In this document: piece by piece, positions 3 through 33,500 of the stretch | Position numbering within the stretch: position 1 is the stretch's first letter | Layout: each line of letters opens with the position of its first letter | IMG/VR virus record: IMGVR_UViG_3300021197_001495 | Location: 1-39,011 of that record | Length of the DNA: 39,011 nt | Strand: one strand, 5' to 3' | From: a virus | Position numbers and translations under genes: made by a program | Notes under the pieces: generated by a model | Told to the model about the DNA's origin: nothing | The model's database searches: none | Seen by the model: only the letters and a program-made list of their open reading frames with translations

Positions 3-1196
3 AAATCCGGTCTTAAGAAGGTAAACGATTACCTAGATAAGATTTCTGTCAAGATCGAAGGCGATATGCTCGAATCTGTTAGTTCAATAAGTTGCAATAA
101 TGACGCGGAACTAGGTGAGATTATAGCGGAAGCTTATACTAAAGTAGGTAAAGATGGTGTGGTACTAATGGAAGAGTCTCCAACTGAAGAGACATACGTC
201 GAGATTGTAGACGGTGTTCAAATCGACTCAGGACTCACATCCCCACATTTTGTTACTGATAAAGATAAACAAGTCTGCGAGCTTGATAATCCGTTAGTGT
301 TAATCGTAGGGTCAGAAATCGCAAGCGTAAGGAAGATACAATCAATATTAGAGCATGTTATAAAAAATAAACGTTCTTTACTTATTGTCGCTCCAGTTGA
401 CCAACAAGTCAAAGCTGCCTTACTTATGAATAAAGTAAAAGGTAATATTAAAGTAAACATTGTTGACTTACCAGGCTTTGGTCCCACAAAAGAAGATACG
501 TGTGAAGATTTAGCATTATTAGTAGGTGCTACTATAATGAATGAAAATCTAGGTGATGATTTAGATCTAATTGATGTTAGTTGCTTAGGTGAGGCTTATA
601 CAGCTGTAACAGACGATAAAACAACAGTACTTACTATAGAGACTCCACAAGAGGCTATGGAGGAGAGAATTGCTAGTATTAAGAAAACTATAGATAAATG
701 GGAGAAAAACCCGTTTATACAAAAGAAACATAGAGAAAGGTTAGCCATGCTATCAGGTAGCGTAGGTATGGTGAAAGTTGGTGCTGATTCTAAGGTAGAG
801 CTTAAAGAAAAGAAAGATAGGATAGAAGATGCTATTTACGCTACTAAAGCCGCTTTGAAAGAAGGTATAGTTCCAGGTGGTGGAGTTGCGCTATTAAACG
901 CATCTCAAAAAATCCCCGCTAAAGCGGTGGGTGAAGAGATACTACTAAAAGCTATTCAAGCTCCTTTCTGGACAATACTAAGCAATGCTGGTATAGATCT
1001 ATTAAAAGGCTATGAAGATCACGAAGGTTATGGTATTGACTGTATAACTGGCGAAAGAGCTACAATGATCTCAGCTGGTATCATAGATCCGGTTTTGGTT
1101 ACAAAATCGGCCCTGAAAAATGCAGTGAGTGTAGTTGCAACTATTATATCTGCAGATTGTGTAATTTCAAACATGAGACACAATGAAGGCAATTAA
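3..1196 (+). CDS. groEL: Chaperonin GroEL, 60 kDa subunit (5' end outside window)
   Basis: ATP-driven folding chamber subunit. The frame is open from position 3, so the gene starts upstream; by eye the visible part begins near residue 119 of E. coli GroEL, with the apical, second intermediate and C-terminal equatorial segments present. Family signatures seen: KVGKDGVV, the apical PGFG, the EKKDRIEDA segment whose Asp (828-830) matches the catalytic Asp398 of E. coli, the GGGVALL segment, and GIIDP carrying the Asp that contacts ATP. The stretch between GGGVALL and GIIDP is several residues shorter than in E. coli, and there is no Gly-Gly-Met tail; the protein ends in RHNEGN. Several residues of the apical substrate/GroES-binding groove differ from E. 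coli (see findings). It overlaps groES by 14 bases, so the two are co-translated. Sure of the family; the missing N-terminus means completeness is unknown. Confidence 0.97.
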   Translation, partial: KSGLKKVNDYLDKISVKIEGDMLESVSSISCNNDAELGEIIAEAYTKVGKDGVVLMEESPTEETYVEIVDGVQIDSGLTSPHFVTDKDKQVCELDNPLVLIVGSEIASVRKIQSILEHVIKNKRSLLIVAPVDQQVKAALLMNKVKGNIKVNIVDLPGFGPTKEDTCEDLALLVGATIMNENLGDDLDLIDVSCLGEAYTAVTDDKTTVLTIETPQEAMEERIASIKKTIDKWEKNPFIQKKHRERLAMLSGSVGMVKVGADSKVELKEKKDRIEDAIYATKAALKEGIVPGGGVALLNASQKIPAKAVGEEILLKAIQAPFWTILSNAGIDLLKGYEDHEGYGIDCITGERATMISAGIIDPVLVTKSALKNAVSVVATIISADCVISNMRHNEGN

Positions 1197-1440
1197 TAGA
1201 TATATAATAGTAGATAGAATAAAGACAGAACCTAAAAAGGTTGCTGGTCTTATAATGACGGATGATACAGATGTAGACAACCGTTATATAAAAGCAAAAA
1301 TAATATCGTGTGGAAATCTTGTAGAAGGTTTAAAAGATGGAGATGTGATATATTACGATAAACATGCTGGACACGACATATCATGGAAAGACACTCTGTA
1401 TAGAGTCATCCGTGATGGCGACGTTGTTTTAGTGTGCTAG
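1183..1440 (+). CDS. groES: Co-chaperonin GroES (Cpn10)
   Basis: Lid of the chaperonin chamber, 85 residues, slightly shorter than the usual 95-100. It starts with the classic strand pattern (RYIIVDRIK), has a mobile loop with AGLIM at residues 21-25 in place of the bacterial GGIVL that docks on GroEL, then a KAKIISCGN strand, a DGDVIYYDKHAG segment matching the GD-V-F-(N/D) region, and a C-terminal strand VIRDGDVVLVC. The start lies inside groEL, 14 bases before its stop, with no Shine-Dalgarno sequence, which suggests translational coupling. The mobile-loop change should be read together with the altered apical groove of the phage GroEL: the pair may be matched to each other. Family assignment is firm; specificity is inferred. 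Confidence 0.93.
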   Translation: MKAINRYIIVDRIKTEPKKVAGLIMTDDTDVDNRYIKAKIISCGNLVEGLKDGDVIYYDKHAGHDISWKDTLYRVIRDGDVVLVC

Positions 1441-2850: not shown

Positions 2851-3231
2851 ATGCCAGAATTTGAAAAAAGCACAGGATACAAAATGAAAGGGTCTACTTT
2901 TTATGGTCATGGTAAATCATCGCCAGCAAAAGTTAGTGATGACAAGGTAGTTGAAGCACAAGCGAACCTTGATAAAATTCAAGATGGTTGGAATGAACCA
3001 GGATGGAGTAAAGCAGCTAAAAAGGTTTTTAGTCCTATGGGTGCCGGAAGCATTGGCGGTGGTGGTGATGGTAATGGCGGTGGTGGTGGTGGAGGTGGTG
3101 GAAAAGGTAAAGAAAAATCTACCAAAGTTAAAACAGATCATGTAATTAACGAAGCACCAGAGGGTACTACTTCAACCGAAAGCTCCTCGCATGCTCCTGA
3201 TTCCGAATGGAAGAGTTATTATCCAGAATAA
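2851..3231 (+). CDS. Small Gly-rich protein with YKMKG...KSSPAK motif
   Basis: 126 residues. Residues 10-27 hold YKMKG, a short spacer with G-x-G, then KSSPAK; the same motif opens the protein encoded at 3620. Residues 69-84 are almost all glycine (16 residues, 14 of them Gly) followed by a Lys-rich stretch, and the C-terminus is Ser/Thr/Glu-rich, so most of the chain is probably disordered. No enzyme motif. Its stop codon overlaps the start of the metallopeptidase-like gene by one base (TAATG), so the two are coupled. I do not recognise a function; the shared motif suggests both small proteins bind or are processed by the same partner. Confidence 0.65.
   Translation: MPEFEKSTGYKMKGSTFYGHGKSSPAKVSDDKVVEAQANLDKIQDGWNEPGWSKAAKKVFSPMGAGSIGGGGDGNGGGGGGGGGKGKEKSTKVKTDHVINEAPEGTTSTESSSHAPDSEWKSYYPE
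3055..3102 (+). repeat. Poly-glycine codon repeat
   Basis: Sixteen codons, fourteen of them GGN, encode the glycine tract. Both GGT and GGC/GGA are used and the tract is broken by GAT and AAT, so it is a low-complexity tract, potentially prone to length variation by slippage. Confidence 0.8.
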
Positions 3232-3596
3232 TGTTTAAATTACCAAATCAAAATCACAAAAAAGTAGCTAAAGGACGTTTCTCGCATTCTACTGAGGAAG
3301 CGTGTCCTGGCACACCTTTATACAGAAAAAAACTAGGCGAAGGTATTCAGGCCGAAGCTAACAATGATGGTACTATATTTATAGCCGAATCAGTAGAACC
3401 TGGAAGCGCAGAAGAAAGACAAATTTTGACTCATGAAGTAAAGCATTTAACTGATATGAAAATTGGTAAAATGAAATATGACGACAATTGGATAAAATAT
3501 AACGGGATGGAATATCCGCGAGCAGAAGGCAAAATATTATACGAGGGTGAATGGATAGACGAAGGAAGTAAAGAATTCCCTTGGGAAAAACATTAA
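3231..3596 (+). CDS. Small HEVKH metallopeptidase-like protein
   Basis: 121 residues. HEVKH at residues 68-72 matches the zinc-peptidase HExxH signature and sits in a helix-like context (RQILTHEVKHLTDMKIG). The N-terminus has a conserved-looking FKLPNQN and an EACPGTPLYRKKL segment; the C-terminus ends FPWEKH. The third zinc ligand is not obvious; acidic residues downstream of the helix are candidates. A longer in-frame start exists at 3207, but the ATG at 3231 overlaps the upstream stop as TAATG, a junction used four times in this cluster, so it is preferred. It lies between two KSSPAK-motif proteins and close to the holin, so roles in virion protein maturation or in wall lysis are both possible. 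Enzymatic activity is inferred from the motif only. Confidence 0.65.
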   Translation: MFKLPNQNHKKVAKGRFSHSTEEACPGTPLYRKKLGEGIQAEANNDGTIFIAESVEPGSAEERQILTHEVKHLTDMKIGKMKYDDNWIKYNGMEYPRAEGKILYEGEWIDEGSKEFPWEKH

Positions 3597-5691: not shown

Positions 5692-5893
5692 GATAAGTAT
5701 CGGTAAAGATTATAAGAATGACGCTATGCACTATGCCGTGGGGCAAGAAGTGTATGGTGGTCATACTATCTGCGATATTATAGAGGAAGATGACAAGTTC
5801 TCTGTCTATATTAAAAAAAATAAAGACGTATTACCTTGGAAGGACTTTAACAAGAATATGGCTGTATCTGTAGAATACAATCTACAATACTAA
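5672..5893 (+). CDS. Small conserved-looking hypothetical protein
   Basis: 73 residues, beginning inside the previous gene (20-base overlap) and ending in a one-base TAATG overlap with the next, so it is embedded in a tightly coupled cassette. The chain alternates strands and turns: a basic start, MHYAVGQEVYGGHTICDI, a VYIKKN strand and a C-terminal MAVSVEYNLQY. It looks like a small beta-barrel or SH3-like fold, which is a guess. It could cooperate with the tandem GroES-like protein encoded directly downstream. Confidence 0.6.
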   Translation: MSKLIRKISIGKDYKNDAMHYAVGQEVYGGHTICDIIEEDDKFSVYIKKNKDVLPWKDFNKNMAVSVEYNLQY

Positions 5894-6483
5894 TGAAGAG
5901 CGTTTACAACTTTGTTGTAAAGCCAAAAGGAGAAAGATATAACAATACTAAAAAGCTAGACGGTGGAGAGCTAATCCTTAACACCGATATCTACCAACAT
6001 AAGTACGTTAATAGAGAAGCTATTGTAATATCAACACCTATCATTGGTGATACAGATATAAAACCAGGTGACACGGTTATAGTACACCACAATGTTTTTA
6101 GAAGATGGAATGACGTTAAGGGCGTGGAAAGAAACAGTAAAGCCTATTTCAATGAAGACACTTACCTTATAAACCACGAGCAAATATTTTTATACAAACA
6201 AGAGGACAAGTGGATAGCTCCAAAAGGATATTGCTTCATAATGCCTTTAAAAGCTACAGATCAATTTAACATTGAATCTGAAAAACCTTTGCAAGGTATT
6301 GTTAAATATTCTGACGGTACGGTTAAGGTTGACGAACTAATTGGTTTTAGACCAAGTAGTGAATATGAGTTTATCGTTGATGGCGAGAGACTATTTCGAG
6401 TTTTATCTAATTTTATTACAATCAAATATGAACATCAAGGAAACGAAGAAACGTATAATCCAAGCTGGGCACAAAGCAGTTGA
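5893..6483 (+). CDS. Tandem GroES-like protein (two Cpn10-type barrels)
   Basis: 196 residues. Residues 1-103 follow the GroES plan: an opening strand FVVKPKGERY, a loop with DGGELIL at 23-29 resembling the GroEL-docking GGIVL of GroES, an EAIVIS strand, KPGDTVIVHH matching the VGD-V-F segment, and a closing strand EQIFLYK at 96-102. Residues 107-180 repeat the plan more loosely: KGYCFIMPL, then QGIVKY, then DELIGFRPSSEYEFIVDGER and a closing NFITIKYE. I infer two fused Cpn10-type domains, which would be a second co-chaperonin alongside the separate groES, or a T4 gp31-like capsid-specific lid. The alternative is a duplicated barrel with an unrelated virion role. It sits directly before the terminase genes and has a one-base overlap with the gene upstream. 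Confidence 0.6.
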   Translation: MKSVYNFVVKPKGERYNNTKKLDGGELILNTDIYQHKYVNREAIVISTPIIGDTDIKPGDTVIVHHNVFRRWNDVKGVERNSKAYFNEDTYLINHEQIFLYKQEDKWIAPKGYCFIMPLKATDQFNIESEKPLQGIVKYSDGTVKVDELIGFRPSSEYEFIVDGERLFRVLSNFITIKYEHQGNEETYNPSWAQSS

Positions 6484-6706
6484 AGAACTTATTAAAGTAG
6501 GTGAAGAAGCTATTGTTACTGACTCTGAAGATGATTTAACAGCTGATAAGTTAAAGAACGCCGCGGCTTCTAAAAAATTAGCTATATTTGACGCATTTGA
6601 GATACTTAACAGAATTGAAGAAGAAGAAAACCTGCTTGAGGGTAAAACACCTGAAGAGGCAAAGGAAAAAACTTTTAAAGGATTCGCAGAAAGTAGATCT
6701 AAATAA
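6428..6706 (+). CDS. Small protein in the small-terminase position
   Basis: 92 residues, highly charged and almost wholly helical: KKRIIQAGHKAVEELIKVGEE, then DDLTADKLKNAAASKKLAI and an acidic EILNRIEEEENLLEG helix. It overlaps the preceding gene by 56 bases in another frame and its stop overlaps the large terminase start as TAATG. Position and helical character fit a small terminase subunit, but no DNA-binding helix-turn-helix is evident at the N-terminus, so that name is only a positional guess. A longer frame upstream to 6341 is rejected because the extra 29 residues would lie entirely in the other gene. Confidence 0.55.
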   Translation: MNIKETKKRIIQAGHKAVEELIKVGEEAIVTDSEDDLTADKLKNAAASKKLAIFDAFEILNRIEEEENLLEGKTPEEAKEKTFKGFAESRSK

Positions 6707-8922
6707 TGTACGAGCAAAGTTTAGTTAATACAGTTGAGCCTGTAAAAAAGACCACTATCAGTCGTCTTAACAAAGGCAAGAAGTGGAAATACGGTTACGA
6801 TAAAGAACACGATATTATAGTGTTATCTCAAAACGGACAAATAGGTGAGATAATAGAAATACAAGGGCTAGTTATTGCGCTACCAAAAGCTCCTAAAGAA
6901 GTATACAAAGATCCGAAGAACAAATGGGTGAAATTCGAGTATCCCAAGGAGTTGCAGAGAATTAAAAATATATTCGATTGGAGAAACTATCCGGAAAGCA
7001 GTAAAGAAAAATGGTACGATTATATAGACGAAGAGTTCAGAAGAAGGGAAGAGGGGTTCTGGTTCACGAATAATGGTAAACCAACCTGGATAACGGGTAC
7101 GCAGTACATGTACTTGCAATGGAGTAAGATTGATGTAGGTGCTCCAGATTTTAGAGAAGCAAACAGATTATTTTATATATTCTGGGAAGCTTGCAAGGCA
7201 GATAAAAGATGTTATGGAATGTGCTACCTTAAAAATAGACGTTCTGGATTTTCTTTCATGTCATCGGCAGAAACAGTTAATTTAGCCACTCTTGCAAGTG
7301 ATAGTAGATTTGGTATATTATCTAAAACTGGATCAGATGCGAAAAAGATGTTCACAGACAAAGTTGTACCAATATCAATCAACTACCCTTTCTTTTTTAA
7401 ACCTATTCAAGATGGTATGGATAGACCAAAGTCAGAGTTAGCGTATAGAGTGCCAGCTAGTAAGTTTACAAGGAAAAAGATGTCAGCTACTGACGGTATG
7501 GAAGAGATGGAAGGCTTGGATACAACTATTGACTGGAAGAACACTGGAGACAATAGTTATGATGGTGAAAAGCTAGCTTTATTAGTTCATGATGAAAGTG
7601 GTAAATGGGAGAGACCTGATAATATTTTAAATAACTGGAGAGTTACAAAAACATGTTTACGGTTAGGTAGTAGAATTATTGGTAAATGTATGATGGGCTC
7701 AACTTCAAATGCTTTAGATAAAGGTGGAGAAAACTTTAAAAAACTATACAATGCCTCAGATGTCACAAACCGAAATAGAAATGGTCAGACAAAGTCTGGT
7801 TTATACTCTTTGTTTATCCCAATGGAGTGGAACTACGAGGGATTTATTGATGAGCATGGAGTTCCAGTCTTTACTACTCCTGATATCGATAGATTCGCAC
7901 CAGACGGTGAATTAATAGATGTAGGTGTAATAGATAGTTGGCAAAACGAGGTTGATGGTTTAAAAAGTGATCACGATGCTTTAAACGAGTTTTACCGTCA
8001 GTTTCCAAGAACTACAGAACACGCTTTTAGAGATGAATCTAAAAACAGTATATTTAATCTTGTTAAAATATACGAGCAAATAGATTACAATGAAGAGATG
8101 TCTAGAACTCTAGGAGTTACAACAGGTAATTTTCAGTGGGTGAATGGCGTTAAAGATTCTCAAGTTATATTTTATCCAGATCCAAAAGGTAGATTTAAAG
8201 TTAGTTGGGTACCACCGGTGCACTTGCAAAATAAAATAGTGTTAAAAAACGGTATTAAATATCCTGGCAACGAGCACATGGGTGCTTTTGGTTGTGATAG
8301 TTATGATATATCTGGAACGGTAGACGGTAAGGGATCTAAAGGCGCTTTGCATGGTTTAACCAAGTTTAGTATGGAAGACGCACCCGCAAACAGTTTCTTT
8401 TTAGAATACCTATCAAGACCACCAACAGCTGAAATGTTTTTTGAAGATATGTTAATGGCTATAGTTTTTTACGGTATGCCTATACTTGCTGAGAATAATA
8501 AACCTAGATTATTATACTATTTAAGAAGAAGAGGTTATAGAGGGTTTAGCATGAACAGGCCTGATAAAGTTTGGAACAAGTTATCTGTTGCAGAAAAAGA
8601 AGTAGGTGGTATACCTAACTCTTCAGAGGATATTAAACAAGCTCACGCAGCCGCAATTGAAATGTATATACAAAGTCACGTTGGATTGCAACAAGATGGT
8701 AGTGTTGGAGATTTGTATTTTAATGAATTGCTCAACGATTGGAGTAGGTTTGATATAAACAAAAGAACAAAGTTTGATGCAACAATAAGTTCTGGTTTAG
8801 CTATTATGGCTAACAATAGGCATTTATACGCACCAAATGCAAAAATAGAAAAACCAAAATTAAACATACATATATCTAAGTATTCAAATAAAGGTGGTAT
8901 GTCTAAAATAATAGAAAAATAA
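6706..8922 (+). CDS. terL: Terminase large subunit
   Basis: DNA-packaging motor ATPase and headful nuclease, 738 residues. The ATPase half has a deviant P-loop, LKNRRSGFSF at about 175-184, where the usual Lys before Ser/Thr is absent and upstream basic residues probably substitute. Walker B is LALLVHDE with Asp296-Glu297, and a coupling motif MMGSTSN lies near 329-335. The nuclease half has the RNase H-like acidic cluster: Asp531 in GAFGCDSYD, an FFEDMLMAIVFYG strand region, and Asp691 in TKFDATISSG. The start is fixed by the TAATG junction. The portal gene follows after three bases. Length and motif order match terminases of large Bacteroidota podoviruses, from general knowledge. Function is secure. 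Confidence 0.95.
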   Translation: MYEQSLVNTVEPVKKTTISRLNKGKKWKYGYDKEHDIIVLSQNGQIGEIIEIQGLVIALPKAPKEVYKDPKNKWVKFEYPKELQRIKNIFDWRNYPESSKEKWYDYIDEEFRRREEGFWFTNNGKPTWITGTQYMYLQWSKIDVGAPDFREANRLFYIFWEACKADKRCYGMCYLKNRRSGFSFMSSAETVNLATLASDSRFGILSKTGSDAKKMFTDKVVPISINYPFFFKPIQDGMDRPKSELAYRVPASKFTRKKMSATDGMEEMEGLDTTIDWKNTGDNSYDGEKLALLVHDESGKWERPDNILNNWRVTKTCLRLGSRIIGKCMMGSTSNALDKGGENFKKLYNASDVTNRNRNGQTKSGLYSLFIPMEWNYEGFIDEHGVPVFTTPDIDRFAPDGELIDVGVIDSWQNEVDGLKSDHDALNEFYRQFPRTTEHAFRDESKNSIFNLVKIYEQIDYNEEMSRTLGVTTGNFQWVNGVKDSQVIFYPDPKGRFKVSWVPPVHLQNKIVLKNGIKYPGNEHMGAFGCDSYDISGTVDGKGSKGALHGLTKFSMEDAPANSFFLEYLSRPPTAEMFFEDMLMAIVFYGMPILAENNKPRLLYYLRRRGYRGFSMNRPDKVWNKLSVAEKEVGGIPNSSEDIKQAHAAAIEMYIQSHVGLQQDGSVGDLYFNELLNDWSRFDINKRTKFDATISSGLAIMANNRHLYAPNAKIEKPKLNIHISKYSNKGGMSKIIEK

Positions 8923-8925
8923 AAT

Positions 8926-11316
8926 ATGGCAATATATACAAACCGTCAATTTCCTAGTCAAGTAGTAAGCGATGTTGAAAAAACTAGCTACGAGTATGGT
9001 TTAAAAGTTGGAAAAGCTATTGAATCAGAGTGGTTTGATGGTGCTTCTAGTAGATGGTCTAGTAATAACAATAATTTTCACAATTTAAGACTATACGCTA
9101 GAGGCGAGCAGTCTATCCAAAAATATAAGGATGAGTTATCTATAAACGGTGATTTGTCCTATTTAAATTTAGACTGGAAACCAGTCCCAATTATACCTAA
9201 GTTTGTGGATATTTTAGTAAACGGAATGACACAGAGAAATTATGATATAAAAGCATATTCTCAAGATCCATTTGGTGTTAGCAAGAGAACTAAATATATG
9301 GAGTCTATATTAAAAGATATGCGTAGTAAAGAACTAAATGACTATGCCCAACAAGCTTTTGGTATTAATTTATATAGTAGTGATCCAGGAGACCTTCCAG
9401 AAACAGAAGAAGAACTAAAACTACACATGCAGCTTACTTACAAGCAAGGTATTGAGCTAGCGGAAGAGCAAGCGTTAAACACTTTATTTGAGGGTAATAA
9501 CTATGACTTAATAAGAAAACGTTATTACTATGATTTAGCTACTATTGGTATTGGAGCTGTTAAAACTTCTTTTAACACTTCTGAGGGTGTTGTTATAGAC
9601 TACGTAGATCCTGTTAATTTAGTGTACTCTCACACTGATTCCCCTTATTTTGACGATATATATTATGTTGGTGAAGTTAAAACTATTCCTATAAACGAGT
9701 TAGTTAAGCAATTTCCGTTTTTAGAACAGGAAGACCTTGAAGAGATATTAAGTAAAAAAACTTTAAAGAGAAATAATTACAATACTAGACAAGAAGAAGA
9801 TAACAACGCTGTTCAAGTGTTATATTTTAACTATAAAACTTACATGAACGAAGTTTACAAAGTTAAAGAAACTGGCAGCGGTGCAGAGAAGACAATAGAA
9901 AAAAATGATCAATTCAACCCACCGGAAGGAATGGAAGGCGGATACAGTAAGGTAGCTAGATCTATAGAGTGTCTTTATGACGGTGCTATGATTCTTGGTA
10001 CCGATAGATTGTTAAAGTGGGAGATGGCTAAAAACATGATGCGATCTAAAAGCGATTACACTAAAGTTAAAATGAATTACTCTATTGTAGCTCCAAGAAT
10101 GTACGAGGGGCGCATAGAATCACTTGTAAGCAGGATAACTGGTTTTGCTGACATGATACAACTAACTCATTTAAAGCTTCAACAGGTGTTGTCTAGAATG
10201 GTTCCTGATGGTGTTTACTTAGATGCTGATGGTTTAGCTGAAATTGATTTAGGTAACGGAACAAACTACAACCCGCAAGAAGCACTTAACATGTACTTTC
10301 AAACAGGTTCTGTAATTGGAAGAAGTTTTACTTCTGAAGGTGATCAAAACCCAGGTAAAATACCTATTCAAGAAATACATGGTGGAGGTGGTGCTGGTAA
10401 CAAAATGCAAGCTTTAATAGGTAATTATAATTATTATCTACAAATGATAAGGGATACCACTGGTTTAAATGAAGCTAGAGATGGAAGTGTTCCAGATAAA
10501 TACTCTTTAGTTGGTGTTCAAAAGTTAGCGGCTGCAAATTCAAATGTAGCAACAAGACACATATTGCAAAGCGGTTTGTTTTTAACAGCAGAGGTTGCGG
10601 AGTGTTTATCACTTAGAATATCTGATATATTAGAATACTCTCCTACTGCAAATGCCTTTAAACAAAGTATTGGCGTTCACAATGTGGCAACTTTAAAAGA
10701 AGTAAGTGATTTGTATTTGTATGATTTTGGTATATTTATAGAGTTAGCTCCAGATGAAGAAGAAAAACAATTACTTGAAAATAACATACAGGTAGCGTTA
10801 CAACAAGGTTCTGTTGATCTTGAAGATGCAATTGATATAAGGGAAATTAAAAGCGTAAAACTTGCTAATCAAGTACTGAAGATTAGAAGAAAGAAAAAAA
10901 TGGCACGGGATCAACAAATGCAACAAGAGAACATTCAAGCTCAAGCCCAAGCAAATGCACAGCAGCAACAAGCTGCAGCACAAGCCGAAGTTCAAAAACA
11001 ACAAGCTTTAACTCAAAGTCAAATCCAACTAGAGCAAGCAAAATCTCAAATGAAAACTCAAGCTGTATCACACGAAGGTGAAGTAAAGAAACAGTTAATG
11101 GAGTTAGAGTTCCAATACAACATGCAGTTAAAGAGTCAAGAGGTTCAAAGCACACAAGGAAGAGATAGTGAAAAAGAAAACAGAAAAGACGAAAGAACAA
11201 AAATACAAGCAACTCAACAGTCCGAGTTGATTGACCAAAGAAACAATCAAAAACCACCTAAAAACTTTGAGTCTACAGGTAATGATACATTAGGAGGATT
11301 TGGTTTAGGACTATAG
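8926..11316 (+). CDS. Portal protein
   Basis: 796 residues; forms the dodecameric channel at one head vertex. It follows the large terminase, the usual neighbour. The N-terminal part is alpha/beta and Tyr-rich; the segment RDTTGLNEARDGS at 509-521 with following VGVQKLAAANSN is a signature I associate with portals of this phage type. Residues about 665-712 are a Gln/Ala-rich helix that could form the barrel or crown inside the head, and the last 70 residues are charged and disordered-looking before a short GGFGLGL end. Length exceeds that of small podovirus portals, consistent with a long barrel. An A/T-only gap of 27 bases separates it from the next gene. Confidence 0.9.
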   Translation: MAIYTNRQFPSQVVSDVEKTSYEYGLKVGKAIESEWFDGASSRWSSNNNNFHNLRLYARGEQSIQKYKDELSINGDLSYLNLDWKPVPIIPKFVDILVNGMTQRNYDIKAYSQDPFGVSKRTKYMESILKDMRSKELNDYAQQAFGINLYSSDPGDLPETEEELKLHMQLTYKQGIELAEEQALNTLFEGNNYDLIRKRYYYDLATIGIGAVKTSFNTSEGVVIDYVDPVNLVYSHTDSPYFDDIYYVGEVKTIPINELVKQFPFLEQEDLEEILSKKTLKRNNYNTRQEEDNNAVQVLYFNYKTYMNEVYKVKETGSGAEKTIEKNDQFNPPEGMEGGYSKVARSIECLYDGAMILGTDRLLKWEMAKNMMRSKSDYTKVKMNYSIVAPRMYEGRIESLVSRITGFADMIQLTHLKLQQVLSRMVPDGVYLDADGLAEIDLGNGTNYNPQEALNMYFQTGSVIGRSFTSEGDQNPGKIPIQEIHGGGGAGNKMQALIGNYNYYLQMIRDTTGLNEARDGSVPDKYSLVGVQKLAAANSNVATRHILQSGLFLTAEVAECLSLRISDILEYSPTANAFKQSIGVHNVATLKEVSDLYLYDFGIFIELAPDEEEKQLLENNIQVALQQGSVDLEDAIDIREIKSVKLANQVLKIRRKKKMARDQQMQQENIQAQAQANAQQQQAAAQAEVQKQQALTQSQIQLEQAKSQMKTQAVSHEGEVKKQLMELEFQYNMQLKSQEVQSTQGRDSEKENRKDERTKIQATQQSELIDQRNNQKPPKNFESTGNDTLGGFGLGL

Positions 11317-12554: not shown

Positions 12555-14063
12555 ATGGCAATTACTGCAGGAAATAATTTGAATAGTGTTCCAGCTTCAG
12601 TGCAACAAACACTATCTACAAATTACTTAGATCTTGCGTCTACAGCAAATCAAGGCTGGGCGCAACAATATTTACCAGATCTAATGGAGAAAGAAGCGGA
12701 GGTATTTGGTCCTAGGACTATATCTGGTTTTCTTTCACAAGTTGGAGCTGAAGAGGCTATGCAAGCTGATCAAGTTGTATGGTCTGAGCAATCAAGATTA
12801 CACTTATCTTACACGGGTACGATAGATTTAGACGGTGACACAAACGGTACGTTTGCTGTTGTTAAAGATATCGATGGTGATACAGCTGTAGGTGCTACAG
12901 CAAGTAGAGTTCATGGTATCAGAGTTAATGACATGGTACTTTTAGCTACTGATGGAAAAGTTTCTAAATGTTTGGTAGTAGAAACTCCAAACTCAAACGT
13001 TGTTTCACTTGAGTCTTATGGTGAAGCTGTTTTAACGGCTCACTCTGAAACTGCTGAAGCAGCTACTTTATTAGTTATAGGTTCTGAGTACGGTAAAGGA
13101 GCTTCTTACGCTGATGAAACTGGTACATACAAAACTGATACAAGAGGTGCTAACGAACCTACGTTCAAGTCGTTCCACAACAAACCGATCATTATGAAGG
13201 ATTACTACGAGATATCAGGTTCTGATGTTTCTAGAGTTGGTTGGGTTGAAGTTGCTTCTGAAGGTGGTCAGTCAGGTTACTTATGGTACTTAAAAGCTGA
13301 AGCTGATACAAGAGCTCGTTTTAACGATTACTTAGAGATGACTATGCTTGAAGCTGAGAAAACTGCTGCTGCATCTATTATTGGTTTTGGTGCTAATAGT
13401 CAAGTTAGAGGCGCTGCTGATGCTGGATTAAACGGAGCTGGTACTGAAGGTTTATTTGCAGCTATCGAAGATAGAGGTAATATTACTTCTGGTGTTACTG
13501 GTGTTAATGCTGCTACTGATTTAGCTGAGTTTGATGCTATCTTAGCTGAGTTTGACAAGCAAGGTGCTATTGAAGAAAACATGATGTTTGTAAACAGAGC
13601 TACTTCGTTAGCAATGGATGACATGTTGGCTTCTATGAATTCTTACGGAGCTGGTGGTACTTCTTATGGAGTGTTTAATAACTCTGAAGATATGGCTTTA
13701 AACTTAGGTTTCTCTGGTTTCAGAAGAGGTTCTTATGACTTCTACAAGTCTGACATGAGATACTTAAATGACAAAGCTACAAGAGGTGGTATTAATACTG
13801 CTGCTGGTAGTGAAGCTATTAGAGGGGTTATGGTTCCAGCTGGAACTTCAACTGTTTATGACCAACAATTAGGAAAGAATCTTAAGAGACCTTTCTTACA
13901 TGTTCGTTATAGAGCTTCTCAAACTGATGATAGAAGAATGAAATCATGGGTTACTGGTTCTGTTGGAGCTGCTACATCTGCTTTAGATGCGATGCAAATC
14001 CACATGTTATCAGAAAGATGTTTAGTTACACAAGGTGCTAACAATTTCATGTTAATGAAATAA
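12555..14063 (+). CDS. Major capsid protein
   Basis: 502 residues. It follows the scaffold-like gene, is preceded by an A/T-only leader and followed by a strong intrinsic terminator, both expected for the most abundant virion protein. The chain is Ala/Gly/Thr-rich with balanced charge; an N-terminal helical stretch (NYLDLASTANQGWAQQYLP, residues about 20-38) resembles the N-arm of HK97-fold capsids. An inserted segment around 90-145 is strand-rich and could be a surface domain. A long helix at about 255-275 (TRARFNDYLEMTMLEAEKT) would match the spine helix. HK97 fold is assumed from family knowledge; the position-based call is strong. Confidence 0.85.
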   Translation: MAITAGNNLNSVPASVQQTLSTNYLDLASTANQGWAQQYLPDLMEKEAEVFGPRTISGFLSQVGAEEAMQADQVVWSEQSRLHLSYTGTIDLDGDTNGTFAVVKDIDGDTAVGATASRVHGIRVNDMVLLATDGKVSKCLVVETPNSNVVSLESYGEAVLTAHSETAEAATLLVIGSEYGKGASYADETGTYKTDTRGANEPTFKSFHNKPIIMKDYYEISGSDVSRVGWVEVASEGGQSGYLWYLKAEADTRARFNDYLEMTMLEAEKTAAASIIGFGANSQVRGAADAGLNGAGTEGLFAAIEDRGNITSGVTGVNAATDLAEFDAILAEFDKQGAIEENMMFVNRATSLAMDDMLASMNSYGAGGTSYGVFNNSEDMALNLGFSGFRRGSYDFYKSDMRYLNDKATRGGINTAAGSEAIRGVMVPAGTSTVYDQQLGKNLKRPFLHVRYRASQTDDRRMKSWVTGSVGAATSALDAMQIHMLSERCLVTQGANNFMLMK

Positions 14064-17201: not shown

Positions 17202-20200
17202 ATGCCGGAAATGAAGAACAACTTTCAGGGAGGTAAAATGAACAAGGACCTTGATGAAAGATTAGTGCCAAGTGGTGAGTACAGAGATGCTTTAAACGTA
17301 GAAATAGCAACGACTAGTTCCTCTGATCTTGGTACTTTACGAACTCTAAAAGGTAACTTGCTTCTCGGTGGATCATGGCAAGGTACTAATGGTGTTCCTG
17401 AAAGTGGCACTTGTGTTGGATCTATATCTGACGATAAGAACGATAAGCTTTACTTTATGATAGCCGGTGAAGACACGGATTTTATAATAGAATACGACTA
17501 TGGCACTCAGTTGTTTTTTCCTGTATGTGTAGATAATCACACTGCCAACGCGCATAGAGCTCTAAACTTTAACAAAGATTTCTTAATAACAGGTGTAAAT
17601 ATTATTGAAGATTTATTGTTTTGGACAGACAACAATTCCGAGCCAAAAAGAATAAACATAACAAGGGGTAAAGCTTTTGGCGCTACATTAAGTGCTGCCA
17701 ACTACTATACAACTCATACAAGTTTAATGGTAAAAGACGTCTCTACTGGAGCTGCGCCAAATACATTTGTTAATTCAGGAAAGCTTATAGAAGAAGAACA
17801 CTTAACAGTTATAAGAAAAGGGCCACCAGCCGCACCTGTTCTCGAAATGTTAGATACACTTTCAACAGATGATTGGGATGGTGATGGTGATTTAGGTGGT
17901 GTTGAGCTAAGAAGAGAGGTGGCAAGCTTAAGTGGAAGCTGGTTAGATGTTAATACTGGAGATTTTGTTAGCACTCTAGTTATCAGTATGTCTCCAGATC
18001 CAGATGGTGACACTGGTTATCAAGCTGGTACCGATTTTAGTGCTGGAGATATTTTAAACGTTTATCAGTTTGATGATAGAACAGTAAAGGTTAGAGTAAA
18101 AGTTATTAGTGGTGGTTCGATTGGGTACACGTGCGAGATACTATCAGGTAACAAAGACATTACAAGTGCCGATAAGTTAATTGCTGAACTAGAACAAAGA
18201 GATGCTCTTTTTCAATTTAAATTTCCAAGATTTGCATGTAGATACAAATATGAAGATGGTGAGTACTCTGCGTTTTCTCCATTTACAGAGCCAGCATTTT
18301 TACCTGGTCCATTTAATTACGTTCCTAAAGAAGGTTACAACCTTGGGATGCTTAATAACCTACGAAAACTAGCAATAAAAGATTTTGTTCATGATAGACA
18401 GATACCAGACGATGTTACTGCCATCGATATTCTATACAAAGAATCAAACTCCACAAATATATACTCCGTAAAAACAATCAAAAAAAGAGAGTACAACTCT
18501 AGCGTGTGGAACGAGTGGAATGCTCTATCTAGTGACACTAGTTGGAACCCAGCATTAAACAATTTTAACAATACAAAAGCTAGGGTTATGGGATACATGC
18601 CTATAACAACAGAAATGATTCACGCTGTTTTACCAGCAAATCAATTGTTAAGACCATGGGATAATGTTCCAAGAAAAGCGTTAGCACAAGAGGTTATTGG
18701 TAATAGACTAGTTTATGGGAATTATTTACAAAACTATAATTTACAAAACTCTATAAATAGCAATATAAAAGTAGACTTACAAGCGGGTGTGCTGTCTACT
18801 AGCGTGGGAGATGTGGCTCCAGAAGAAATCCACGCGGGACTTAAAAGACATTTAGATTATTACCCAGCAAAATCACTTAAATCATTAAGAACATATCAAG
18901 TTGGAGTTGTTTATTTAGATCAATATGGAAGAGAAACTCCAGTTTTTTCTGAAGATAAAAGGGGTGCTAACTATGGCGCAACAACCTCAGAGGCATCTGT
19001 TTATATTGATAAAGATAGGGCACCAAAAAGAAACGCTCTACAAGTGACAATGAAAAATAATCCACCAAGTTGGGCTACTCACATGAAGTTTTTTGTTAAA
19101 GAAACTTCTAACGAGTACTACAACTTATCTATGGACCGCTGGTATGACGCGGAAGATGGTAATATATGGTTGTCATTTCCTAGCGCCGACAGAAACAAGG
19201 TTGACGAAGAGACGTTTATAATTCTAAAGAAAGAGCATGACAATAACACTCCTATTGACGATCCTGCTAGATACAAAATTATTGCGATTGAAAATGAAGC
19301 TCCTAGGTTTATAAAGCTACAAAACATATCCATGGGCGCTGTTGTAGATGGGAATTTTGATGCTGATGGGACTGGTGGCGCTCACTTTCAATTAGGTCCA
19401 AATTCAAACGGCTTTCCAGGCGAACAAGGAAGTGGTTTGCATTCGTTCCAAGTAAACGTACATAAAGACGCTTTTGAATTAGCTGGATGGAAAGAGTCTT
19501 TAATAAACCAAGATATTTCACAATGTTTTTTTAGAATAACTTCTGCTGGAACTGGTACTAGTAATTACTATAGAGTAAAACAAGTAACTTGGGATGGTGG
19601 TGATGGTACGTATGCTATAAAATCTGGTAAACAGTTTGGAGGAGATATGGCTTTTACATCAGTTGACGGAACTTATCTTAACAGAAACCCTAATTGTGAG
19701 TTACAAATAATGAAAAAAATACCTGAAGATAGAGCAGAGTTTGAGGGTAGATTTTTTGTAAAAGTATTAAAAGATCACACTTTAATAGAAAGGCTAGGTA
19801 TTAGCTCCACGGTACAAGACAACCTAGTTGTAACAGCTAGTATGAAAGTTCAATACATAAATCCAACTGGTATACAAGCTCCAGGTGGGTGGGATGGATA
19901 CGGTACTAGTGCTAAGAAAATATCTATTGATTCAAAAACTGGGTCACATTCTTTCCGTCCTCCAGGTTATAGTAGTGGGCATGGTGATAAATTTTGGAAG
20001 ATGGCTGGTGACGACGAGAATACTAATAGTACTAGCGCTTCTTCTGGATGGTTTATAGATAAAGTTGAAGCTTTCAGACCTTTTAAGGGTCAAGTTAGAC
20101 AGTTTGTTTCTAACAAAGATAACAACGTTAAGTTTACCAATGAAACTAGTTGTCACGGAACGTTTTCAGATTGTTTATTTTCAAGTTCATACAACAACCC

Positions 20201-23200
20201 TTTGCCTAGGTTACTTCAAGCTATAGGTCTTGATACGTATAACCACGGTAATTCAACAAACTATTTGGGTATGGGAATTAAAGGCCCTGGTAGAAGTAGT
20301 GATTTCATGAGACCAAAACACAACGTCTCACGTAGTTTAGGTATAGACACGAGCATCAATTTAGTTCATCTTTCTTACGCTGGATTAAATACTGGGACTG
20401 GTGGAGGAGCATACTCAGGAGCTGGAGATGGTTATAGTAACGATGATTGGGACTTTAAACAAGGAAATAAGCACGCAGAAGATCTTAGTTTTATTGACAA
20501 AATAAAAGCGCCAGGCACACTGTGGAGGTGGAGAGAAGATCCAGATAAAGTTTTGTATAGAACTGTAGTTGGAACAGCAGTAAATCAAAATTCTGAATAC
20601 ACAGCTGCTTACATGGGTAGGGAGAAACTAGATAGAGATGGGAACGCTGGTGTTTTTGTTTATAATTATGCTAGTTTTAATGATTACTTTATCAAAGAGC
20701 ATCACCAACACACTGGTTGCGGTTGTTTTGGGTGCGGCGCATATAGTTGGACACATGGCTTTGTTGATTTTGCTAGTAGAGGTATAGGAAATACTAATTT
20801 CGGTAGTTGTTCTGGGCAAGAAATCCCAGATCTTTTAAGAGTTTCGTTTAATGCTACGGCTGCAGGGCATTGGCATAGCGGCGCTAGTGATTGGGAAACA
20901 GGTGGTCCTTTTTACGTTGGAGGTTATTGGGATTCGCACAAGAAGTTCCCTATGGGAATATGGAACTGGAAAAATTGCTATAACAGACGTAGAAGATTTG
21001 CTATTTTTGTTGAAGTTGTTGAAGACCCTACCGCGCAGATTGGTTCATATGGCCCGCACAAGTACTTACCGACTAATGACCCTAATTTACCACCGCATTT
21101 TGATCATCATGCAAACCCTATAACAACTTTTCCCGCAGGGCATGCTATGGAAGGTGGTCCTATTTTAACTCCAGCTCCTGGTATTAGGCCAGATGGGATG
21201 TACTCAGGGCACAATGACCACCCAAACGGCCCTTATTTATTTGATAAAGGCGATGGGAACGGGGCAGTAAATATAGATCAAATCCCACAGTACAAACGTT
21301 GGGATGCTAACTACACGACTAATGGTGCTGCACCTAGAGAGTCTGGTGTACCTGGTAGTGTGACTTTTGAAGTAGTGGAGCATTTTGAAGAGGATTCAGA
21401 AAAATTTACTAGCACAAACCCAGCTATTTGGGAGACAGAACCTAAAGAAGACGTTGGCTTAGATATATACCACGAAGTAGGGCAAATATATCCTATAGAA
21501 TTAAATGACAAAACAATAGAACAGTTTGTAGGACCTGTTCACGTGGATATTACTAGAAACTCATATGTACAATGTTGGGATCCACCATATGCTCCGGGAA
21601 GTGGAGCCGGCACAATCTCTTTAATGGCGGGCGGTATTCGTGATGTTAGAGTTTTAGCAGCCAAAGACAATTATGTGAGACTAGGTGTAGATACATCTAC
21701 TGCTTCAGAGCTAGCGTTAGATAGCAACAATGCGCTTCACACTACTCCTACGGTTGGATCTTATCTAATGTTCCATAGAGCGGATGGTAGTAGAACAGAG
21801 GCTCACGTTGGGCCTAACACATATAACGTGGCAGGTAGTGGAACTTGGTACGAGTTAGTTGGTATATCGGGAGAAACAGGTGTTCACAATAAACAAATAG
21901 TATTACCTTGGTTTAATTGCTACTCATTCGGTAACGGTGTTGAATCAGATAGAATTAGAGACGACTTCAATCAAGTAACAATAGACAATGGACCAAAAGC
22001 ATCTACAACATTAGAAGAACCTTATTTAGAGGAAAGAAGAAGCAATGGTTTTATATGGTCTGGATTATACAACTCTACGAGTGGTGTTAATGATTTAAAT
22101 CAATTCATACAAGCTGAAGCTATAACAAAAGACACAAACCCTTCTTATGGTAGTATTCAAAAGCTACACGCTAGAGATTCCGACTTAGTTGCTTTTTGTG
22201 AAGATAGAGTTTTAAAAGTTTTAGCAAACAAAGATGCTTTGTTTAATGCTAACGGTAATACTAATCTAGTATCTACGAATAGAGTTTTAGGAAATATTAA
22301 GCCTTTCTCGGGTGATTATGGTATATCTTTAAACCCTGAATCTTTTGCATCTGATTCTCATAGAGCTTATTTTGCTGATTCGAGTAGAGGTGCAGTGTTA
22401 AGATTATCTCAAGATGGTATTACAGCAATATCCAGCGTTGGAATGCATGCTTTTTTTGCTGGTACTTTAGCTAGAACAGGTGATTACAATATTATTGGTA
22501 GTTTTGATGATAATAAAGCAGAGTATAATATGACTCTTGAGTCAATAACTTACGAGCCATCATACTTACTTCCACTAGGAGTTACACAAACATCTCCTTG
22601 TGGCGGCGGTACTGTGGTATCAACTGGCGTTGGATCTACCACTGTTGAAGAGAGAGCTAGTTACAATACTTTATCTTATAGTGAAAAAAGTAAAGGGTGG
22701 GTTTCTTTTAAATCATGGAACCATGAAAACGGTATTAGTTTAAACAATAGTTACTATACGTTTAAAAATGGTAACATGTATAGGCATCATGTCAACGAAA
22801 CCCACAATAATTTTTATGGGAACCAATTTGATTCTTACGTAGATGTACTGTTTAATAAAGCGCCAGGTGTTATAAAGAGTTATTCTACATTTAATTATGA
22901 AGGTTCTCAAGCAAGAATTACACCAGGGGTAAACAACAGCCCTGATTACTACGATGATCTACCTAAAACAGGTTGGTATATTGGTAGCGCTGTCTCAAAC
23001 GCTCAAGAACTAGGTGAGTTAGAGTTCTGGGACAAAGAAGATAAATGGTTTAGTCAAATAAAAGGAGTAACAACAGAGTGGTTAAACGATGGTACTGCTG
23101 GTAACATAGATCCTAGAGAGTTTTCTTTTCAAGGTATAGGTGATTCAATTAGTGTAACTTGCCCTGACTGCCCACCTACTACAAGTTGGAACTGCGTTGG

Positions 23201-30540: not shown

Positions 30541-33500
30541 ATGGTTGAAACAAAAGCAGAACTAATTGCCGACTTAGTAGCTAAAAACGCTAGCAAAGAA
30601 GAGGTTGCAGAAATAAAAGGTATGACTTCAGAGGAACTTGTAAACGCTGGTTTAATAGAGGGAAAGACAGTAGACGTTGCATCAAAGGGTGTGAATGTAG
30701 CGTCGGAAAATACAACACCCAAGAATACGGATTCAGATTCGGAAAGTACTTCTTCGGCTTTAGAAAATCCTGTTAATACAAAACCGACTGTTAAGGACTT
30801 AGAAAAACCAGAGGAAGTTAAAAAAGATCCATACGAAGATTTTTATATAAAGCCTAGTTTTTTTGGTGAACCCACTAAAGATGGTGGTACAAAAAACAAG
30901 CCGTCCGAAGAGCAGGCAGCTAAAGAGTTAAACGAAAAACTAAGTGGATTAGGCATAAAAGTAATAGAATCAAAACCAGGTTTTAACGCTATAACGCTAA
31001 TAGGAGGAGATGGAGAAGAAGATATAGATCTAGGTTTGTGGAAAGGGTTTATGACAGCTGATGACGAAACTCCAACTGAGAAAGCGGAAAGGATAAATGG
31101 TGTTATAAACGACGTTATAGCTTACAAAACAGAGCAAAACCCACTGTTTGATATAGATACATATGTAAACGCGATGTCAGATGCTAAGGCTGATTTACCT
31201 GAAGTATACTCTGCTAGTGAAGATGGTGGTAGGTTTTTAAATGTTGACGAGCTCGATTCAGAACAATTAAATGATCACACGCATAGAGTTCATTTGAATT
31301 TAATGAACAAATATTGGGAGAGTGACGAGGGAAAAGAAAACATTAAACTTATAACTGATCAACGAAAAGAACAGCAGTTAATCCTTTGGGAGCAAGCTGT
31401 TGATGAGATTCAAGCCGGCACAGATGTTTACACGGTTATAGCGGGTTATACAGAGAAGCTAGACAACGCTTACGACGAGGTGTTTAACAATAACGCTAGT
31501 TACAAACAAATGTTAACTAACACAACGGCTGTTATTAATAGTTTATTTAAAGATAAAATCCAAAACAAGAGAGTTGAAGAAAAAATAACAGAAGAGTTTG
31601 GTGGTTTTGTTGCTAGTAGCGATATATTAACGGCTTTCGCAAAAGGAAGTACAGTTGTTTTTCCAAAAGAAATACAAGAGTTTACGGCAATGCAGGCGGG
31701 TAATAAAATCCGAAATCTAAAAGAAAAATACGATGCTTTAAAGGGTTATGATAGCGAAAGTCTTCAAACTGGTTCTCATTTTAAAAGTGGAAATCCAGAA
31801 ATAAGTTTTCCATTAAAAAAATATAAAGTATCAGAATTAAGACAAAAGTATTTAGAAGCCATAACGCTTGAAGAAATGTCAATGATTGGTAATTTATTAA
31901 AATCCCAACAGTACCAAGAGACTTTAGATAAAATATCCAAACCTAACTCTGAACTATTTACTAAAGATGGTAAATTAAATATAACTTCTGACAATTGGCA
32001 GTTAGCGCTAGGTGATCAGGCTTTTAGAATGCTATCAAGTATATTTTCAGCTGGAACTTCAACTTTAGTTTCTGAAGCTTCTGGTGCTTGGTCTCAAATA
32101 TTACAAACCAAAGCTCAACAAAAAGCAGATGCTGCTGGTAAGAACTGGGGAGCGATGTCAAAGGAGGAAAAGATAATATACATGCTAGATGTCATCGATT
32201 CTGGAGAAGATGGTTATAAGGAAGCTATGGCAGTTGGTGGTGTTAACGCTGCTCTTGAAAACGTTAGTAATGTATTTTTTGTTGGTAAAATGGCTAAGTT
32301 TGTTCCATCAAATATAACTGGTTATTTTAAGTTATTTATGAAAGGTAAGTATAGAAAAATACTAACCGACATAGCTAAGAATGTGAACGTAAAAAATACA
32401 GTTGATATATTAACGACTTCTGGTGTAGAAATAATAACAGAAGGACTTCAAGAAGAAGTAACTCAATATGGCGTAGGTACCGCTTTAGACAATTACAACC
32501 ATAGTTGGAACGGTACTTTAAATTCAATGTTAACAGCTGCTGTAACAACACCATTTATTGGTGGTGGTGCTAAAGCTACTAGTGCTATATACTCTGAAGT
32601 AAGCTCTAAAATTGCTGCTATAAAAAACCCAGAAGGAATAATTGCCTACGTTCGGGAACAAAAAGGACAGTATAAATTAGAAGAAGAAAGTGGAGAGATA
32701 ACAACGGAAAAGTACGAAGAGTTAATGATACAACTCGATGCTGCTGAAAAGATGTTTAGCGAAACAGACAAGGTTGTAACAGATACTGAGTCTGTAAAAA
32801 TGATATTAGAAGCTCAAGTTGAAATAGAAAAACAACTCGTTAAAGTTAGAGATTTAAACGCTGCTCAAAAAAAGGCAAAAAACGAAAACCCTAACTATGA
32901 TGAAAAAATAGATGGTGCTGAAACAAAAGCTGAACTTGATCTTGTTATACAAGAAATAGTTAAGCTAGAAAACACAAAGAAAAAAGCTAAAAGAGCAGAT
33001 TCTTACAGAACACAAGCTAGAGATAGGGCTAATGAAATAAACAATGACCCTGTTAAAAGTCAAGATTTTGACGCTAAAGTTTTTAACACAACTCAAGAAG
33101 CCATAAGTACTTTAGAAAAACAATACGGCATAACTATAGAGAACGCTAGTAATTTAAGTATATTCGCTGAAGGTAAGGGTAACGGTATCGTTATGTCTAG
33201 AGAGGATATTCAAAAAATAATACCAGGCTATGAAGGTAAAGGTATTTGTTTTTGGTCAGATGAAGCTATAAATAAAAACATCAACGAGGGTGATAGATTT
33301 GCCGCAAACGCTATAACGCATGAAGACAAGCACTTAGATTTTTATTACAAATCTGACGAGGAGTTATCTAACGCTCAAAACACGGTGTTGACTATACTAA
33401 AAGATTCTAAAAGTCCTCAAATGCAGGAAATTAGAACTTTGATCGGTCAAAGACTAATGCAATACGAAAAAGAATTTGGTAAAGATTTCTTAAAAACACG

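Follow-up and report, generated by a model that had tools for sequence, protein, structure and literature searches.

Lids that carry two GroES domains in tandem are possessed by chloroplasts and also by apicoplasts, which are degenerate chloroplasts. In chloroplasts, Cpn10 and Cpn20 form hetero-oligomers with seven GroES domains, and the tandem lid has been termed chloroplast-specific in a review (PMC5780408); in Arabidopsis, Cpn10(1) is functional only with Cpn20 (PMC4242682). Among phages, the GroEL of phiEL showed no functional interaction with the GroES of E. coli (PMC7185714), and chaperonin cpn10 is one of the core genes of Pervagoviridae (PMC8776804). In the portion of the text used here, Nishimura 2017 reports GroEL homologues in 36 of the 78 group-2 marine phi38:1-like environmental genomes, ascribed to Flavobacteriaceae phages, and that portion treats chaperonin phylogeny, not lids or groove (PMC5332604). 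The original prediction for the locus described below held that GroEL in phages is uncommon. This is outdated: the gene is present in 231 phage records and in at least 596 matching IMG/VR stretches, and has been reported since 2017. A phage GroEL of this general kind is already known; less expected are a Cpn20-like second lid and an unusually polar groove. Our search of the open-access literature found no description of a tandem GroES in phages.

The window analyzed here is the whole of a linear IMG/VR virus record of 39,011 bases. We propose that it encodes a phage group I chaperonin whose probable task is to fold late proteins of the phage and which is capped by a single-domain GroES (ES1), possibly together with a tandem GroES (ES2). 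The features on which this proposal draws, with their profile matches, are as follows.

3..1196, plus strand: 3' part of groEL, 397 amino acids, about E. coli residues 121-527 (PF00118, 1.5e-29; phrog_5725, 8.5e-93)
1183..1440, plus strand: ES1, a single-domain GroES of 85 amino acids (PF00166, 1.1e-7; phrog_3188, GroES)
5893..6483, plus strand: ES2, a tandem two-domain GroES-like protein of 196 amino acids (phrog_13932, co-chaperonin GroES, 6.4e-17)
6428..6706, plus strand: small open reading frame between ES2 and terminase, possibly a packaging gene, with its start codon picked by eye
6706..8922, plus strand: terminase large subunit (phrog_6681, 1e-169)
8926..11316, plus strand: portal protein (phrog_6547, 2.9e-152)
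12555..14063, plus strand: virion structural protein, probably the major capsid protein (phrog_13704, 1.3e-95)

The chaperonin genes share their region with genes for packaging and the head: downstream come the terminase, the portal, and head proteins, as well as a very long protein that matches the muzzle family. With terminase and head genes as neighbors, the chaperonin may have proteins of the head or tail as its clients; the probable major capsid protein is one candidate. The terminase is 63% identical to that of ctfjg026, 45% to Elemovirus (elemo), 38% to Baltivirus phi13:2, and 37% to Cellulophaga phi38:1. By this gene, the window phage is nearest to ctfjg026 and is kin to phages of marine and brackish flavobacteria.

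Several other genes of the window deserve mention. The muzzle-family protein (17202-25871) has 2889 residues and contains the N-terminal region and C-terminal domain of the crAss-phage muzzle (PF25731, PF25729). Beyond these it continues for about 900 more residues, in which a Cys-rich repeat, YDCxxGNCVG...GTGQYxTYQDCxDNC, occurs four times, and has a Hoc-like end. A second giant protein is encoded by an open-ended frame of at least 2823 codons (30541-39009) that leaves the contig; it has no PHROG match and a weak match to AfaD. Finally, a 129-residue protein (3207-3596) matches eCIS_core below threshold, features an HEVKH motif, and may be a small metallopeptidase.

The 5' end of the record falls inside groEL, and residues 1 to ~120, D52 and D87 among them, lie off the contig. 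Breaks in or near groEL are common in the clade (window position 1, L028, L029, L037, L040, and others) and perhaps reflect flanks that are hypervariable between strains. The reading frame accordingly has an open 5' end. It covers profile positions 97-488 of Cpn60_TCP1 (PF00118), with 103.5 bits against a cut-off of 34.3; the best PDB matches are GroEL. For comparison, we took 55 complete GroELs, 69-92% identical, from 80 IMG/VR loci of the clade and 80 GroELs from many bacterial phyla, and numbered residues after E. coli K-12 GroEL. Loss or breakage of the N-terminal equatorial domain, which had been named beforehand as contrary evidence, is not seen in the relatives: the domain is intact in 55/55 complete sequences, the corresponding part of the window gene being off contig.

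The four groove substitutions that the original prediction had read by eye are all correct. Alignment with bacterial and phage GroELs does not restore the canonical hydrophobic residues at 199, 203, 234, or 259. Y199L (codon 234-236) recurs as L199 in 50/55 complete relatives, where 78/80 bacteria have tyrosine; Y203H (codon 246-248) recurs in 53/55, against Y203 in 79/80 bacteria; L234Q (codon 339-341) is present in 55/55, against L234 in 74/80; and L259K (codon 411-413) is present in 55/55, against leucine in 80/80. Judged by this recurrence, the substitutions are features of the clade rather than sequencing noise. F204 and L237 are retained, as is the ATPase residue D398 (codon 828-830). 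Two further changes, V263L and V264M, were absent from the earlier reading and remain hydrophobic, such that the window GroEL keeps hydrophobic groove residues at L199, F204, L237, L263, and M264. Five of the eight canonical groove positions are therefore hydrophobic in the window clade, compared with eight in 79/80 bacteria and six to eight in ten other phage GroELs; the other three substrate/GroES contact residues are polar or charged. The C-terminal GGM tail is indeed missing, as claimed, and this is not distinctive, being common to all ten other phage GroELs examined.

Outside the groove, D52, D87, T89-T91, S151, D398, G414, G415, and D495 are invariant across the 55 complete relatives, and the visible part of the window gene agrees. 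The allosteric salt bridges R197-E386 and D83-K327 are lost in the clade. The clade also varies at R452 and E461, which form inter-ring contacts; the ring architecture is therefore uncertain, and a double ring cannot be taken for granted.

Was the groove specifically rewritten for its own lid and for particular clients, as had been suggested? We considered sites conserved in at least 90% of bacteria, counted clade differences per domain, and compared counts by Fisher's test. Differences affect 32% of such sites in the equatorial domain, 29% in the intermediate domain, and 52% in the apical domain. Within the latter, 6/9 groove sites are changed versus 40/79 remaining apical sites (p=0.49). A targeted rewrite is rejected on this count, with no excess of change in the groove, and no client is recognizable from sequence. 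The apical domain has instead diverged as a whole, along a very long branch: the clade is monophyletic and lies outside the bacterial GroELs at 1.88 changes per column, a length that calls for long-branch caution. With the same caution, recent acquisition from a host is not supported, since the clade falls outside bacterial GroELs while those of DAC19 and Va1 fall inside. A pairing of K259 with an acidic ES1 loop was also considered and dropped, as acidic loop residues occur in phages that are hydrophobic at 259 as well.

The alternative that the groove substitutions reflect general apical divergence without client specialization is compatible with the proposed chaperonin system, runs counter to the original prediction, and has in our estimation about an even chance of being correct. 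The length of the branch, the higher proportion of change in the apical than in the equatorial domain, and the lack of groove excess all favor it. On the other hand, the four substitutions are almost invariant in a clade of 69-92% identity and hence constrained now, and in hydrophobicity the clade groove scores below those of E. coli, the 80 bacteria, and the ten other phages alike.

ES1, encoded next to groEL, scores 32.2 bits against the Cpn10 profile (PF00166; cut-off 21.1), matches Cpn20 (7ekq_R, 1.7e-7) and Thermus Cpn10 by profile, and yields an AF2 model with pLDDT 84 whose best fold matches are Cpn10/GroES. In alignment, the roof hairpin of E. coli GroES is missing from ES1; that of T4 gp31 is reduced. 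In the window, the last 14 nt of groEL are shared with the start of ES1. ES1 directly follows groEL in 78/80 loci, usually with an overlap of 14 or 17 nt, and in the remaining two the contig ends within 71 bases of groEL. At one locus (L063:2209-3936), GroEL and ES1 form a single 575-residue frame, possibly a sequencing frameshift or a true fusion.

The ES1 mobile loop reads AGLIM(T) in 59/78 copies, and in all copies listed the glycine is followed by three hydrophobic residues (LIM, LIV, LIL, or similar). AGLIM was thus read correctly, but it is rejected as the mark of a special lid because bacterial loops are equally varied and include SGIIIP, GGIVLP, GGLYIP, and others. With no excess change in the groove and AGLIMT within bacterial variation, a groove matched to a lid or clients of its own is possible but unsupported as stated.

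The second GroES-like gene, ES2, lies 4.5 kb downstream, immediately before terminase; among relatives, 205-241 nt separate its stop from the terminase start. It had been flagged as a GroES-like candidate, rightly, while its tandem two-domain nature was missed. All 57 relatives tested match phrog_13932 (co-chaperonin GroES), and homologues in phi38:1 (gp089), Elemovirus, and phi13:2 (gp096) are annotated as co-chaperonin GroES. Among PDB structures, chloroplast Cpn20 (7ekq_R) fits the AlphaFold2 model (pLDDT 75) best, with 204 aligned columns across both domains at E 2.1e-5. The model also matches 7ekq chain Q, which we take to be Cpn23 (E 1.8e-3). The C-half is GroES-like by profile: hhalign gives a probability of 96.7% versus 74 bacterial GroES and that of E. 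coli, where the highest value from 20 column shuffles is 4.7%. The C-halves of the phi13:2 and phi38:1 homologues exceed the Pfam Cpn10 cut-off (PF00166). The N-half is weaker, with 49% versus ES1 at a score of 28.1, where shuffled N-halves reach up to 13.7 versus bacterial GroES. Two GroES folds per chain are therefore indicated by the fold match over both Cpn20 domains and by the C-half profile, with weaker indication for the N-half. By sequence profile, similarity between ES2 and Cpn20 is too low for a match; direct profile comparison of the clade ES2 and ES1 alignments is weak, as is Pfam on ES2, and more diverse relatives were required.

The N-domain loop of ES2 ends in LIL in the window and in L-I-(L/I/V) in relatives. 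A mobile loop was not found in both domains: in the clade and in most relatives, the C-domain loop is short and has no hydrophobic tripeptide. With the N-domain tripeptide kept and the C-domain loop lost, ES2 is a tandem GroES whose two domains have a single GroEL-binding loop between them. The tandem protein of phi13:2 (L089, gp096) retains a second-domain loop, SLIYIP, that is lost in GroEL-bearing relatives.

ES2 was found in 75/75 testable GroEL-bearing records, i.e., 61 loci and 14/14 further records searched whole. The trio of GroEL, ES1, and tandem GroES also occurs in ctfjg026, Elemovirus (elemo), phi38:1, and Maribacter phage Panino. Other phages have different combinations: immuto, DAC19, and Va1 encode GroEL and GroES without the tandem form; phi14:2 (Crassvirales) encodes GroEL alone; Gundel has none of the three genes; and phi13:2 (Baltivirus) encodes a single-domain GroES (gp079) and the tandem GroES without a detectable GroEL. 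Lids and GroEL are therefore separable, and a perfect co-occurrence of ES2 with phage GroEL, first suggested by tblastn, was rejected by the profile search that found only lids in phi13:2. Within the phages sampled, ES2 never occurs without a single-domain GroES (6/6 informative phage lineages). Among contigs seeded with ES2, GroEL is present on 3/11, but most end close upstream of ES2, so this count carries no weight. Correlation between distance matrices is highest for ES1-ES2 (rho 0.74; partial 0.60 given TerL) in a set where every pair correlates; this fits a shared lid and is only suggestive, not decisive.

All three genes are intact across dozens of independent contigs, and pairwise dN/dS is 0.095-0.14 for GroEL, 0.04-0.085 for ES1, and 0.06-0.13 for ES2. 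What can be stated at the level of sequence is that a large group of uncultured phages, kin to those of marine flavobacteria, carries a conserved GroEL/GroES system, as judged from gene identities, ATPase residues, the tripeptides of ES1 and the ES2 N-domain, purifying selection, and the near-universal trio. From these features we infer ATPase and refolding activity for GroEL and a role for ES1 as its cognate lid; ES2 may act in the same complex. To this extent the earlier claim, that the chaperonin is active and has its own lid, is likely, given the invariant ATP-site residues, dN/dS of 0.04-0.14, and the overlap of ES1 with groEL, while tuning to lid or clients does not follow. In the proposed mechanism, GroEL would capture unfolded phage proteins through its diverged, less hydrophobic apical groove, would bind and hydrolyze ATP in the usual way, and would be capped by co-expressed, single-domain ES1. 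ES2 could form a mixed ring with ES1, cap GroEL on its own, or serve host GroEL. Several points count against the proposed system: three of eight groove positions are polar or charged, the allosteric pairs are lost as in phiEL, ring contacts are not conserved, the first part of groEL lies outside the window, and phi13:2 has both lids with no detectable GroEL.

By analogy with plastids, ES1 and ES2 might co-assemble to cap the phage GroEL, an idea that we hold tentatively and regard as possible rather than probable. For example, three ES2 and one ES1 would provide seven GroES domains and four mobile loops. If correct, a hetero-oligomeric lid of the plastid kind would exist outside plastids, and some of its domains would not touch GroEL.

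Alternatively, the lids could serve host GroEL and retarget it to phage proteins, as T4 gp31 does, leaving the phage GroEL separate or redundant. The canonical hydrophobic tripeptide of the ES1 loop would suit this role, and phi13:2 with both lids and no detectable GroEL is the one relative in which the gp31-type arrangement, lids in a phage without its own GroEL, is found. In the window, however, groEL overlaps ES1, as it does in nearly all clade copies, ES2 always stands alongside GroEL, and Gundel is devoid of all three genes; we consider service to the host chaperonin unlikely. ES2 could also be a GroES-derived head or packaging protein with no co-chaperonin function. Its fixed position directly before terminase, the listing of "chaperonin cpn10" beside structural proteins in the Pervagoviridae core (PMC8776804), the lost C-domain loop, and the weakly GroES-like N-half sequence would accommodate such a role. 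Set against them, the N-domain retains an invariant LI pair in a low-confidence and probably mobile loop, the fold match covers both Cpn20 domains, and a single-domain GroES accompanies ES2 in each informative phage lineage, which makes a purely structural role improbable. Finally, a lid-independent holdase that does not encapsulate, with other roles for the GroES genes, would parallel phiEL in the loss of R197-E386, D83-K327, and hydrophobic groove residues (PMC7185714), but is very unlikely for a GroEL that is 38-42% similar to bacterial GroEL, against 22% for phiEL (PMC7185714), and whose gene, unlike that of phiEL, is overlapped by the gene of a genuine GroES that keeps its mobile loop and is under strong purifying selection.

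A phage group I chaperonin capped by ES1, the reading we prefer, matters modestly for GroEL itself: it represents an abundant, old phage lineage whose groove is strikingly less hydrophobic and in part charged, yet seems to function, a natural experiment on the degree of groove hydrophobicity that group I chaperonins require. The trio carries more weight. If tandem and single GroES jointly cap the phage GroEL, the seven-fold symmetry puzzle of chloroplast Cpn20 could be put to the test in a small phage system, of which elemo and phi38:1 are cultured examples.

Relative to known systems, the window GroEL resembles that of phiEL (gp146) in its altered groove and in the loss of the R197-E386 and D83-K327 pairs (PMC7185714); phiEL has diverged much further and no GroES is known for it, whereas the window lid gene overlaps groEL. 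Like T4 gp31 and RB49 CocO, the window lids are phage-encoded and of GroES fold, but T4 relies on host GroEL, the window phage carries its own, and gp31 is only a weak fold match. The closest systems are those of phi38:1/Calle (Pervagoviridae), Elemovirus, Panino, and ctfjg026, which likewise encode GroEL, a single GroES, and a tandem GroES beside terminase, with homologous head and terminase genes. Their GroELs are 35-40% identical to the window clade, and their grooves keep Y199 and a hydrophobic residue at 259, with different substitutions at 203 and, for the most part, at 234. Similar to chloroplasts with Cpn10 and Cpn20, each such system combines one single-domain and one tandem two-domain GroES. 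Unlike Cpn20, the C-domain of ES2 has no mobile loop; the hetero-oligomer is known for chloroplasts and hypothetical for the phage. The likeness between ES2 and Cpn20 is likely convergent or the product of an independent duplication.
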